Notes under the pieces: generated by a model
Database searches by the model: none
What the model was told of the DNA's origin: nothing
The model's input: the letters and a program-made list of their open reading frames with translations, nothing else
NCBI GenBank assembly: GCA_002746215.1
Contig: NVWI01000010.1
Location: forward strand, 93,688 to 129,498
Direction: 5' to 3'
DNA length: 35,811 nt
Source of the DNA: SAR86 cluster bacterium
Lineage (GTDB): Bacteria; Pseudomonadota; Gammaproteobacteria; Pseudomonadales; Pseudohongiellaceae
Part shown: one piece after another, positions 1 through 24,143 of the stretch
Numbering within the stretch: position 1 is the first letter of the stretch
Layout of the letters: each line of letters opens with the position of its first letter
Position numbers and translations under genes: made by a program

Positions 1-120
1 AAAAAGTGTAGCTAAATATGAGTAAATAAGGCTCAAATATGTAGTAAAAACACTAAAAACTGAGATTGACCAAGATCACAAGCCTTTGATTTATATAAAT
101 AAAAATATCAAAAAGGCAAA
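1..120. other. AT-rich flank without a gene
   Basis: I see no open frame with a credible start and no 5' half of a tRNA here. The bases just before 121 (ggcaaa) cannot pair as the 5' strand of the anticodon stem, so the tRNA piece that follows has no 5' half at this place. Together with 166-342, which is also AT-rich and gene-free, this is probably the end of an integrated element that extends left of the window. Confidence 0.5.
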
Positions 121-165
121 CTTCGAACCAGTTGGTCGGGAGTTCGAATCTCTCCAGGCGCGCCA
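121..165 (+). other. 3' fragment of a tRNA-Arg gene (attachment-site remnant)
   Basis: The segment can be numbered exactly as tRNA positions 32-76. The anticodon loop CTTCGAA is at 121-127, the 3' anticodon-stem strand CCAGT at 128-132, a 5-nt variable loop at 133-137, the T stem GGGAG/CTCTC at 138-142 and 150-154, and the T loop TTCGAAT at 143-149. The acceptor strand CAGGCGC is at 155-161, the discriminator G at 162 and an encoded CCA at 163-165. The acceptor/CCA end resembles arginine tRNAs, whose genes commonly end in GGCGCGCCA. Read literally the anticodon is TCG; the loop is one base from the CTTCTAA loop of tRNA-Arg(UCU). Everything 5' of the anticodon loop is missing, so this is not a working tRNA. 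It fits the distal attachment site of an element that recombined at the anticodon loop of an intact tRNA-Arg gene left of the window. Confidence 0.75.
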
Positions 166-175
166 TTTTATCTAT
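143..175 (+). repeat. left direct repeat (att-like)
   Basis: This is a 33-bp direct repeat of 3853-3885 at an offset of 3710 bp. Mismatches occur only at 155 (c versus t) and 169 (t versus c). It spans the T loop, the 3' acceptor strand and CCA of tRNA-Arg, plus ten bases beyond CCA. The identity beyond CCA shows that the duplicated core is longer than the tRNA itself. Confidence 0.8.
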
Positions 176-342
176 ATCCTAACGATAATCTTCATTAACC
201 GTTGCCCCAAAGAATCTAATTTGTCCCATTGATATATATACTTTTTAATATGTCGATATACGTTTGCTTTGTAAGGATGGCATTTAGGAACGTTGCCTTA
301 TAAAATATTGTTTTCACATATAAATATAATTTGGCTCATTGG

Positions 343-1186
343 ATGAAAGAAATAATTGATGCAATTAGATTGGCGCTATTAGAAAGGGCCTCTAGCCCTT
401 TACTAGGTAGTTTCACAATTGCTTGGTCTTTATGGAACTATAAAGCTCTTTTAATACTATTTTCAAAATTAGCGATTAATGAGAAGTTTAGATTGCTGAA
501 TCAGTTATATGGAGTACTGGTATTTTATTCCCTTAGATAGCTCATTCTTTTATCCATTGCTAATAGCTTTGCTTTTTGCTGTAGGTTTTCCATTTATAAA
601 TACTGGAATTTATGCAATCACAATAATAGCGCAAAAAATATATAACAAAATAAAGGAAGGGGTATTAAGTGAATCTAAAGTACCTTATTCGACTTTTTCA
701 GAATTAAGAAAAACTTATGAAGATAGCGTGGTCGATAATGAAAATGATCTAGCAAAAAAAGAAACTCAAATTTCAAAATTTGCAGAAGAGAATCAAAACT
801 TAGTCGAAAGGATTAAAGAATTAGAGTTAAGTGTAAATGAATCTGCAAATAGTAATGTTGAGTCAAACGATGATAATGAAAGTGAAAAAGCCGATGATAA
901 TTCGAACGGAGATGTTTTAAATGATCCTAGCCTACCAGGTATAGTTAAAGTTAATGCTGACCAAGTTGTAATTTTACATTACCTTTCTCAGAATCCTGAG
1001 AATTATCCATTAAATGTTTTACATAACAATATTAGAGGTAAGCTTAAAGGAGACATGATCGATTTTAGATCTGATTTGTCAGAACTAGTTAAAGATAAAT
1101 TGCTACAGCTGAGAACTGGCGGTTATTCAAGTACAGATCTTGGAGTTACACTATACAACAAAATGCGAAAAGAAAAATCTACCTAG
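343..1186 (+). pseudogene. frameshifted membrane protein with coiled coil and winged-helix-like C terminus
   Basis: Two overlapping frames appear to be one gene. The first (TTG 331 or ATG 343 to 540) encodes a segment with ERASSPLLGSF and WSLWNYK and a first hydrophobic stretch. The second (open from about 509 to 1186) continues with a strong membrane segment (FFYPLLIALLFAVGFPF), a charged coiled coil (about 40 residues after the membrane segment), an acidic Asn/Asp/Ser-rich linker, and about 75 C-terminal residues that look like a winged helix. I recall uncharacterised membrane proteins with the same SSPLLGSF and WNY pattern joined directly to the second hydrophobic segment, so a one-base shift near 500-525 is the simple explanation. 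It could instead be a sequencing error. The base composition is very AT-rich, and the gene is the first of the island. Function is unknown; membrane proteins of this sort occur among phage-defence and island cargo genes, which is only a hint. Confidence 0.55.
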
Positions 1187-21030: not shown

Positions 21031-21463
21031 ATGGAGTTTAGTGAAAGGCAAGCTACAAACTCCGATTTGCAGTGGTTATGGAAAACTTACAAAAGCTTGT
21101 TAAAAGAATATATTACTGAGCAATGGGGTTGGGATGAGAGCTTTCAGTATGAGGGCTTTACCCTTACTCCCACCTTCAAAATTCAAAATAATTTCTATAA
21201 ATAATGAAGATATAGGTGCATATTTAATAAACAAATATTCCGATTATTTTAATTTAGACATGCTTCTTATCGTAAAGAGATATCAGAACAAAGGTATAGG
21301 GCGACAAATAGTAGAAAAGATAAAATTATTAGCAAGCAAAGAAAATAAGTCATTAAAATTAAGCGTGATAAAAACAAACCCAGCCAGTAATTTTTATAAA
21401 CATATGGGGTTTCAAGTTGCTGGGGAGAAAGAAGGAAGCATAAAATTTGAATATGCTTCATAA
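21031..21463 (+). pseudogene. GNAT family acetyltransferase, frameshifted
   Basis: Two frames make one GNAT domain. The first, ATG 21031 to TAA 21204, encodes MEFSERQATNSDLQWLW, then LLKEYITEQWGWDESFQYEGF, the usual N-terminal helices of this group. The second is open through 21463 and has LDMLLIVKRYQNKGIGRQIVEKI (the acetyl-CoA-binding Q/RxxGxG/A motif as YQNKGIG) and NPASNFYKHMGFQVAGE. Joining them needs a one-base shift near 21160-21185, close to ACTCCCACC. GGAG is found eleven bases before the ATG. It is either a recent pseudogene or a sequencing error; no other change is visible. Confidence 0.75.
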
Positions 21464-21538: not shown

Positions 21539-22825
21539 TTATAAAGTAGTAAAAAATATCGCAGCCAGAAAACCTAACAAGGTCGATATCCCTGTGACAC
21601 CACCGCCTCGATGATAGGCTTCAGGCAACATGGTTTCGGCAATAACAGTTAACATTGCGCCAGCGGCTATACCTTCAACCAGTGAAAAGGTTGTTAACTC
21701 TACGCCGACAAAGAAAACACTGCCAAGCCAGGCTCCAATTCCCGTAAAGATCATCAGTGAAGTCCACATAATGAGAATTCGATTAAAACTGTAGCCTTGT
21801 TCACGCATGCCCAATGAACTGGAAAAGGCTTCAGGAAAGTTAGAAAGAAATAAACCTGCTATCAATGACAGGCTGATACTTGCATGCAACATACTGGCGC
21901 CGATGACAAAAGACTCGGGAATCCCGTCCAGGAAGATACCCAGCCAGATAGCCAGAGGCGCAGCGCTATAGCTTGCAGCAGCCTCTTTAACATCACTTGC
22001 TGTTGGGGCAGTAATGGCATCGTCGACTCTATGTTTGGCTGCGTCATACCAATCCTCAGCCTGTTCTTCACTTAATGTTTTTTCTGCGCCTAATTCTTTA
22101 AGTCTGTGCTCAGTTACCTCGATGATGGCTTTGGCGAAGCTGGGTATTACTTTTACCAGCTCATCAAAATCTTCTTTCTTTAATACCCAGGCAGACACTT
22201 CTCCATCGGCGATGACCGATGCTGTATGCAAATTCCCCGTTAATAAGGAAATTTCTCCGACCACATCATCAGCCCCTAATGATGCAAGTTGGCGCTGCTG
22301 TATTTCATCAACGACCCTGACCTGACCTTGATCAATTATGTAGAGGTTCTCACCTTCTTTTCCTTGTGTCATGAGCGCCTGCCCGGGCTGAAAAGTTTGC
22401 CGTTCGATCAATGGAACCAGGTGCTGTATCTGCTGAGGAGGCAATGCATTGAAAAGGGGGGATCGGCTTAGACGTTTAAACAAGCGTTTAAAGTCTTTGC
22501 TCTTGGATCGTGTGAGATAACTTACCGTGGTGCCAACTTTACGCAGGAATCCGCCCTGGCTGTTAATCCATGCATTTAATGCTACAAACAGGAACCCGCC
22601 AATCAGGCAACCGACGGCGAGTTGAGAGTAATGGCCTCGGTTCAGAGATTCAACAACAAGGTCAATGGTAAGAGCAGCCAACAGAGCGCCACCACCAAAC
22701 GCCATTAAGGCGGCTATCACTCGGTTACCAGGCGTCCAGAATCTGGCAACAATAGCGCCTAGTGGTAGGGAAGCCGCGCTGATTAATCCAAATATAAAGG
22801 CTTGTAGGGCAAGAGATTCTGGCAT
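21539..22825 (-). CDS. ZIP family metal transporter with an inserted cyclic-nucleotide-binding domain
   Basis: A 428-residue membrane protein. Three N-terminal hydrophobic segments (about 6-28, 36-58, 69-87) and five C-terminal ones match the ZIP divalent-metal transporter fold. The long loop between segments 3 and 4 carries a complete cNMP-binding/Crp-like beta-roll (about 114-235: LFNALPPQQIQHLVPLI, FQPGQALMTQGKEGENLYIIDQGQVRVV, VVGEISLLTGNLHTASVIA). Segment 4 has D300-GIPE304 and segment 5 has N329-FPE332 where classical ZIPs use HNxPEG and HExPHE. The phosphate-binding cassette keeps G190-E191, but H200 replaces the usual arginine, so true cAMP binding is uncertain. A C-terminal PEAYHRGG follows. 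It is either a ligand-gated metal carrier or a repurposed sensor. Confidence 0.85.
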   Translation of the reverse strand: MPESLALQAFIFGLISAASLPLGAIVARFWTPGNRVIAALMAFGGGALLAALTIDLVVESLNRGHYSQLAVGCLIGGFLFVALNAWINSQGGFLRKVGTTVSYLTRSKSKDFKRLFKRLSRSPLFNALPPQQIQHLVPLIERQTFQPGQALMTQGKEGENLYIIDQGQVRVVDEIQQRQLASLGADDVVGEISLLTGNLHTASVIADGEVSAWVLKKEDFDELVKVIPSFAKAIIEVTEHRLKELGAEKTLSEEQAEDWYDAAKHRVDDAITAPTASDVKEAAASYSAAPLAIWLGIFLDGIPESFVIGASMLHASISLSLIAGLFLSNFPEAFSSSLGMREQGYSFNRILIMWTSLMIFTGIGAWLGSVFFVGVELTTFSLVEGIAAGAMLTVIAETMLPEAYHRGGGVTGISTLLGFLAAIFFTTL

Positions 22826-22958: not shown

Positions 22959-24143
22959 ATGAAATTAATTATCAAATTACTGCTCGGAATAGTTGCCGGA
23001 TTATTAATTGGTTTGTTTGCCCCAGAGGGGGTTGTCCGTCTTTTAGTGACTATCCAGACGGTTATTGGTGCATTTATTGTATTCCTCATTCCTTTTATTA
23101 TTTTGTTTTTTATTGCTCATGGTATATCCAGCCTTCCACATTCATCCGGTAGGCTTTTAGGCTTAACCATAGTCTCTGCTTATGTATCAACAATCGTAGC
23201 AACCTTAATTGCCTGTTCGATTGCACTTATTTTGCTTCCAACTTTATTAAATGGCATAGATCCTGAATCAGTAAATGTTCAGGCAAAAGAAATTATGCCT
23301 TTTATAGAATTTAGAGTGGAACCCGTAATGGGTGTCATTACTGCCTTATTAACTGCATTTTTGTTTGGCATTGGTATTCAGCTTACGGCTTCCAGCGTGA
23401 AGACGACGGCATTAAAAGATATGGTAGCGCAGGGCAAACTAATCGTTGAAATTGCGATAAGAAAAGTCGTGATACCACTTCTACCTTTTTATATTGCCGG
23501 TATTTTTACTGACCTGGCTGCCAATGGCACTGCCTTTGTCTACCTCTATACTTTTGCCAAAGTTTTAGTATTGGTAATCGTGTTGCATTGGTTATGGATT
23601 CTGGTGCTTTATGCTATTGCGGCGATGGTCTCCGGTAGAAACATGTTTAGTTTAATTAAGGTTATGTTGCCGGCATATGTAACGGCTATTGGCACGATGT
23701 CCAGTGCAGCAACGATCCCGGTTACACTGCGTCAGGCGCAAAAAAATAAAATTTCAGAACCTACACGCGAATTTGTGATTCCACTTTGTGCCTCAATTCA
23801 TTTATCCGGTAGTTCTATTACTATCATTACTTGTGCTGTTGCTGTGATGTTGTTGTCACCTTCTTTGCCGACACCGGGTTTGTTAATGCTGATTCCTTTT
23901 ATTCTTACTTTGGGTGTGATTACGATTGCCGCTCCGGGCGTTCCCGGCGGAACTATTTTGGCGGCACTCGGCATATTGGCGAGCATACTGGGTTTTGATG
24001 AGGCTACATTAGCTTTGATGATTGCTCTGTTTTTAGCTCAGGACAGTTTTGGTACAGCCTGTAATATATTGGGTGATGGTGCGATAGCTATCATCGTTGA
24101 TGCTGAAGCAGGTAATAATGCAGAGATAGTGGATAAGGCCTAA
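22959..24143 (+). CDS. dicarboxylate/amino acid:cation symporter (DAACS/SLC1)
   Basis: A 394-residue inner-membrane symporter of the glutamate/aspartate/C4-dicarboxylate family. Signature parts are the hairpin 1 serine-rich AIGTMSSAATIPVTL, the TM7 region CASIHLSGSSITI, hairpin 2 APGVPGGTILAALGIL, and TM8 QDSFGTACNILGDGAIAIIV (the NxxGD signature). The C terminus (DAEAGNNAEIVDK) is short. GAGG lies six bases upstream of the ATG. The next gene, metY, is 134 bp downstream. The substrate is probably acidic amino acid or dicarboxylate; the SLC1 arginine that separates these is not obvious here, so I leave it open. Confidence 0.93.
   Translation: MKLIIKLLLGIVAGLLIGLFAPEGVVRLLVTIQTVIGAFIVFLIPFIILFFIAHGISSLPHSSGRLLGLTIVSAYVSTIVATLIACSIALILLPTLLNGIDPESVNVQAKEIMPFIEFRVEPVMGVITALLTAFLFGIGIQLTASSVKTTALKDMVAQGKLIVEIAIRKVVIPLLPFYIAGIFTDLAANGTAFVYLYTFAKVLVLVIVLHWLWILVLYAIAAMVSGRNMFSLIKVMLPAYVTAIGTMSSAATIPVTLRQAQKNKISEPTREFVIPLCASIHLSGSSITIITCAVAVMLLSPSLPTPGLLMLIPFILTLGVITIAAPGVPGGTILAALGILASILGFDEATLALMIALFLAQDSFGTACNILGDGAIAIIVDAEAGNNAEIVDKA

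Follow-up and report, generated by a model that had tools for sequence, protein, structure and literature searches.

The closest described system is BbZIP from Bordetella bronchiseptica (PDB 5TSB, 8GHT, and others), a transporter of the GufA type. According to PMC9873690, TM1, TM4, TM5, and TM6 of BbZIP make up a moving elevator, and TM2, TM3, TM7, and TM8 form a static scaffold. The TM3-TM4 loop is described there as short and partly disordered, and a cytoplasmic helix contacts alpha3 and alpha4 and hyperactivates the protein when deleted. From this domain assignment, the TM3-TM4 connection is a covalent tie between the scaffold and the elevator. The same connection is the second intracellular loop (IL2), and replacing its histidine clusters resulted in faster transport in BbZIP and ZIP4, as reported in PMC13192868. 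Other relatives are recorded as "ZIP family zinc transporter" in Rhizobium, Deinococcus, Pantoea, Comamonadaceae plasmids, and other genomes. These insert-free ZIPs have approximately 240-254 aa and lack a cyclic nucleotide-binding (CNB) domain.

CNB domains are known from channels, kinases, and regulators. Among carriers, the sperm Na+/H+ exchanger SLC9C1 is gated by cyclic nucleotide. SLC9C1 likewise has a carrier and a CNB in one chain; however, it belongs to another transporter family, and PMC11120249 describes a C-terminal CNB and a voltage sensor, whereas the CNB reported here is internal. Bacterial MFS transporters fused to a CNB, mentioned in a review (PMC10710835), also represent a recruited CNB in another family, a likeness drawn without regard to the CNB position. 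Searches of the open-access PMC literature, a scope outside which most subscription journals fall, yielded no description of a ZIP with an inserted CNB.

The window (the whole stretch of 35,811 nucleotides analysed here) carries a gene for a CNB-inserted ZIP-type transporter of 428 aa (21539..22825 including the stop codon, minus strand), supported by the ORF, Pfam, a structural model, and dN/dS. The gene is a single frame, with ATG at 22825 and TAA at 21541-21539, and its parts are all encoded on the minus strand. TM1-TM3 and the GGFLRK motif after TM3 (residues 91-96) occupy residues 1-100 (22526..22825), as defined by the model, a TM1-3 profile, and the conservation of R95 and K96. The beta-roll of the CNB covers residues 123-244 (22094..22459) and was recognized by PF00027 and by fold matches to PKG I and MloK1. 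Linker helices defined by the model and W259 join the CNB to TM4 (residues 253-285; 21971..22069). TM4-TM8 span residues 289-428 (21542..21961), based on the Pfam Zip stretch, a comparison of the subfamily profile with BbZIP, and the model.

The original prediction described a ZIP protein with a CNB between segments 3 and 4, and it agrees with the Pfam cNMP_binding match and with both folds in the AlphaFold model. cNMP_binding (PF00027) matched residues 143-225 with an E-value of 1.5e-18 and 67 bits against a cut-off of 27.5, which places the insert among CNB domains. For Pfam Zip (PF02535), the best stretch was 265-419 (E 2.5e-6), and its 27.4 bits lie below the curated cut-off of 35.1 bits, taken as the detection threshold. 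A Zip search of both membrane halves, a negative outcome of which the original prediction named as counter-evidence, resulted in weak matches for the halves alone (E 0.011 and 0.0012). That of the N-terminal half is non-colinear, as it aligns to profile positions 236-321, away from the first helices. Family profiles, built from the corresponding parts of a 71-row alignment, matched 26 of 26 insert-free ZIP loci with both TM1-3 (E 8e-20 to 9e-7) and TM4-8 (E 6e-45 to 4e-8). Therefore, both membrane halves belong to the ZIP family by sequence homology. Since the 26 loci were found via matches of the window protein, mostly in its C-terminal half, TM1-3 gives the more independent of the two results.

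The AlphaFold2 model was built from the same alignment (the window protein and 70 homologues) and reached a mean pLDDT of 85.7 and a pTM of 0.72. It predicts an eight-TM ZIP fold over both halves, comprising TM1 (5-29), TM2 (34-62), TM3 (66-89), a helix (97-120), the CNB (123-244), the linker helices (253-285), TM4 (289-314), TM5 (319-342), TM6 (347-371), TM7 (377-407), and TM8 (410-427). The top structural matches were eight BbZIP entries (Z 22.6-24.7, rmsd 2.2-3.7, 211-244 residues, approximately 1..428). The next were CNB domains over model residues 104-249, including PKG I (4ku8, Z 18.0) and MloK1 (1u12, Z 17.7). Among the matches listed, the CNBs of PKG, MloK1, HCN, SthK, and CNG share the fold (Z 15.9-18.0, 117-145 residues), and the GE at the start of the cassette is also common to them and the window protein. 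A PDB sequence search with the window protein gave only CNB chains among the 60 of 190 matches listed, and a first PDB fold search gave only CNB entries among the 50 of 1003 listed; the ZIP fold came from the second structural alignment. When a profile of six insert-free relatives was submitted against the PDB, the clear matches were BbZIP chains only (E 8.5e-18 to 3.2e-17). In the model, ZIP-like membrane halves enclose a central CNB, and we regard the fused ZIP-CNB architecture as close to certain.

The window protein and BbZIP have the ZIP fold in common over both halves, with 23-25% identity, and their metal sites were compared in an alignment read by eye. The TM4 motif is D300-G-I-P-E304, and the TM5 motif is S328-N329-F-P-E332. 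E304 and E332 keep the places of BbZIP E181 and E211, whereas D300, G301, S328, N329, and T361 stand at H177, N178, Q207, D208, and E240, respectively; L48 and D55 align with M99 and S106. The identities of D300, E304, N329, E332, and H200 were correctly given in the original prediction. Its statement that the histidines of segments 4 and 5 are changed holds for D300, at the place of H177, but not for N329, which aligns with D208, while S328 is the residue aligned with Q207. No variation occurs at D300, G301, E304, N329, P331, E332, T361, or L48 across 80 rows (the window protein and 79 relatives, with tandem-CNB rows and L058 included), so the conservation of the four named membrane residues was borne out. 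D55 in TM2 (codon 22661..22663, minus strand) is acidic in the same 80 rows (E 43, D 37). The selectivity filter proposed for human ZIP8 includes Q180, the counterpart of BbZIP S106 (PMC10372143).

The canonical His-containing binuclear site of the GufA/ZupT type (H177, N178, E240) is replaced by D300, G301, and T361. Judged from the alignment, the primary metal site keeps three carboxylates, and the second site is degraded. This suggests a carboxylate cluster (D300, E304, and E332, with D55 at the mouth) that would accept Mn, Fe, or Zn without the usual His. Transport could be altered due to the degraded second site (N178 to G301, E240 to T361) and the replacement of the TM4 His by Asp. In the tree, 18 insert-free ZIPs group with the fusions; DG[IV]PES and SN[LIV]PE are present in 17 of them, and RK after TM3 in 15 (both by eye). 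The metal site is thus independent of the insert, and a reading of the altered site as the mark of a fusion or of a lost transporter is not supported. In the 71 rows, residues 55 (TM2) and 84 (TM3) covary (D,N 26; E,D 26; E,N 17; D,D 2), which may reflect a coupling between the two or common descent.

With one genome scanned per species, 388 pattern matches and 180 confirmed relatives were obtained, and the best 80 were kept; insert-free ZIPs may be among the remaining 100. In these best 80 of 180, all matches span nearly the whole query, and all titles are MAGs. Approximately 20 phylum-level names were counted from the MAG titles, among them Spirochaetota, Bacteroidota, Planctomycetota, Elusimicrobiota, Rokuibacteriota, Verrucomicrobiota, and Armatimonadota, a spread that rests on bin labels, which can be wrong. 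The CNB was confirmed by Pfam in 78 of the 80 (70 single-CNB members and 8 of 8 tandem members), with L058 and L089 outside this check. Pfam Zip was detected at E 0.01 in 60 of 71 single-CNB rows and 7 of 8 tandem rows. In the aligned relatives, the CNB is always inserted at the same place, between TM3 and TM4, as the original prediction had asked. L089, a frameshifted match, was left out of all counts except the 80-relative match scan and the neighbour survey. The eight tandem members and L058 are outside the 71-row alignment, although L058 is inside the 80-row conservation count and the tree; L033, L034, and L035 are outside all three. L006/L058 (G001) has an in-frame TAG at codon 8 in an otherwise intact gene, which may have a downstream start or be decaying. 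In L034 (G059), the N- and C-terminal parts are in different frames, due to a frameshift or an assembly error.

The distribution of the fusion family is patchy. Within the window's genus, the fusion was found in four of five genomes, the window's own among them, and that draw as a whole gave 5 of 57. It was present in 5 of 390 genomes of the order, and only in the window's own among 398 genomes of a phylum-wide draw. The phylum of G772, a Bacteroidetes MAG genome, gave 8 of 296 genomes including G772, and the match of G786, one of the eight, starts only at position 93. The 47 pattern matches in viral contigs contained no relative, and none of the 271 plasmid records with a match covered 80% of the query. 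A Sinorhizobium plasmid match spans 55-257, and no ZIP-like ORF was found there among plus-strand ORFs of at least 200 aa. Regarding a single origin of the fusion, the 18 insert-free ZIPs arise in the tree at an unresolved fork within the fusions, and the test of the 80 fusion rows as one clade resulted in a p-AU of 0.493, by which a single clade is neither rejected nor proven. This tree has very long branches for some insert-free rows (L147, L032, L045) and unsettled bootstrap, and it was built without L054 and L142, which escaped the ORF pattern, and L145, which was unlisted. We regard the protein as a non-canonical member of the ZIP superfamily.

The window gene is flanked by opposite-strand ORFs: a GNAT-type ORF (21134-21463) is convergent with it, and an SDF symporter gene (22959-24143) is divergent from it. 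At three loci of the same genus, the fusion gene has an SDF symporter gene on one side and an M20 peptidase gene on the other; the window has the same setting, plus the GNAT ORF in between. Neither gene was found adjoining the fusion at the L059 locus. Clustering of 483 neighbour ORFs from 74 loci (6 of 80 were dropped, as the simple ORF caller gave no centre ORF) revealed no family in more than seven loci. Likewise, when Pfam families were counted in 40 close co-directional neighbours (from 43 ORFs with a gap below 100 bp, three of 84-91 aa being excluded), none occurred in more than three members. Due to the lack of a conserved neighbour gene, neither a metal nor a nucleotide role gets support from the neighbourhood.

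The phosphate-cassette region of the CNB covers approximately residues 190-204. We take E191 and position 200 to be the Glu and Arg places of the cyclic nucleotide-binding cassette. The window protein has the Glu (E191) and an intact GEISLLTG core; however, unlike in known CNBs, the phosphate-binding Arg is replaced by His (H200, codon 22226..22228, minus strand). Position 200 is R in 45, H in 17, and another residue in 9 of the 71 single-CNB members, a cleaner tally than the 26 H of the 80 rows, which counts tandem rows. H200 is therefore not conserved, a point that the original prediction had raised. As a pair, the two cassette places hold E+R in 45 of the 71 rows and E+H in 12, with another combination in the other 14. 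All four same-genus proteins harbor H200 and the E+H pair, whereas L007/L059, the closest relative from another genus, and both Rokubacteria members (L064, L066) retain R. On a membrane-only tree (CNB columns excluded; 63 rows with R or H), at least five R/H interchanges were counted, so the difference has more than one origin, the count being blind to direction. Two other CNB proteins of the window's genome have Arg at this place.

Since the cassette Glu and Arg are kept in 45 of 71 members, the ligand of the family at large is probably a cyclic nucleotide, cAMP or cGMP. For the window protein, cAMP or cGMP is an uncertain ligand, a reading weakened by H200 in all four same-genus proteins; with His at the Arg place, the CNB of this genus may differ in its ligand or in the affinity for it. 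Class III cyclases (PF00211) matched in 9 of 9 genomes searched, with seven matches in the window's genome, and are a possible ligand supply. PF00211 also matched in G002, which belongs to the genus but lacks the fusion, and in 5 of 14 control genomes; a class I cyclase was not found in the nine genomes searched. The cyclase matches G000:C4:166635-167090 and G000:C17:598019-598474 have an identical score and frame length, possibly due to a duplicated stretch or assembly redundancy.

In the four same-genus genes, dN was far below dS in every comparison with an estimable dS, although several dS values were saturated. Over six same-genus pairs, dN was lowest in TM4-8 (0.02-0.05), the most constrained part, followed by TM1-3 (0.05-0.10), the linker (0.14-0.20), and the CNB (0.17-0.22). 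In the four pairs with an estimable dS, the CNB had a dN of 0.17-0.19 against a dS of 1.1-2.9. Within the genus, the CNB is under purifying selection, yet freer than the other parts.

We lean, with moderate confidence, towards a ligand-gated elevator as the best explanation, based on the predicted fold, the insertion site, conservation, and purifying selection. The protein would be a divalent-metal carrier of the ZIP superfamily whose IL2 houses a cytoplasmic CNB. A small molecule produced in the cytoplasm would bind the CNB, and the hinge movement would pass through the post-CNB helices, with the invariant W259, to TM4. This coupling would ease or restrain the sliding of the metal-carrying domain, and uptake would thereby be switched post-translationally. 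We infer the cytoplasmic side, transport, ligand, gating, direction of the effect, and metal from the features above. Regulatory gating by the CNB appears likely. R95 (80 of 80 rows) and K96 (78 of 80) after TM3, and W259 (80 of 80) before TM4, are candidate coupling points.

That two neighbouring genes were joined by chance or during assembly is extremely improbable; no point in favour of this was found, and the homologues led us to reject it. All 80 kept relatives, from separate assemblies, match both membrane parts and the insert, and 78 of these matches are free of internal stops and frameshifts. Separate adjacent genes, which the original prediction named as counter-evidence, were not seen either, as the family CNB profile found no CNB ORF in the 26 insert-free ZIP loci with flanks of 1-1.5 kb. 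A transceptor, that is, a non-transporting ZIP whose CNB signals metal occupancy, or the reverse arrangement, would explain the sensory domain and the replacement of the His ligand and second-site ligands. We consider it quite unlikely, since the same motifs in 17 of 18 insert-free ZIPs mean that this site is no mark of lost transport, TM4-8 is the part under the strongest constraint, and no conserved partner gene was found to receive a signal. The sensor-only alternative is disfavoured.

A less remote possibility, though still a rather doubtful one, is that the window protein and the other non-Arg members have lost cyclic nucleotide binding in their CNB, which would serve in docking, dimerisation, restraint, or binding of another small molecule and would still tune the elevator. 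The H200 of all four genus members carrying the gene, the repeated R/H interchanges, and the faster evolution of the CNB relative to TM4-8 argue for it, as does the absence of the full E+R pair in 26 of 71 single-CNB members and in all 16 tandem CNBs (by eye). However, E191 and the GEISLLTG core are intact in the window protein, purifying selection on the CNB persists, and R is kept in L007/L059, L064, and L066.

Beyond the window, the ligand-gated elevator might extend to a widespread, undescribed family of CNB-bridged ZIPs, gated by a cyclic nucleotide or another ligand without a transcription step and with the sensor doubled in one clade; we put this forward tentatively, at a little under an even chance. 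Since this design recurs across many lineages of uncultured bacteria, a small molecule inside the cell may act there as a direct switch of metal transport. If true, second-messenger signalling would be linked directly to trace-metal uptake, and a ZIP carrier would be available whose elevator motion could be driven by a soluble ligand via IL2. The CNB would be a domain insertable inside a carrier fold, beyond additions at the ends. Natural R, H, and tandem variants are available for comparison within the family.

The tandem members, with two CNBs between TM3 and TM4, are 8 of the best 80 relatives (L093, L107, L110, L112, L118, L123, L125, L133). They have 605-616 aa and form one clade (support 100/93), and two separate CNB stretches were reported by Pfam for L093 and by the family CNB profile for L093 and L110. 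A post-CNB Trp is present in each unit (W266 and W441 in L093) and does not vary among the eight; therefore, the copied unit seems to be the CNB plus its coupling helix. Read by eye, the cassette Glu is absent from 16 of 16 CNBs, and His occupies the Arg place in 15 of 16, the Arg being in the first CNB of L107. Both tandem sensors may thus be off the cyclic nucleotide standard. The model of a tandem member was weaker (pLDDT 76.8, pTM 0.47). L035, from another genome of the order, has two CNBs as well. The 685-aa open frame G835:C11:8044-9873 gave two overlapping matches, both including the CNB, and is perhaps another tandem form.
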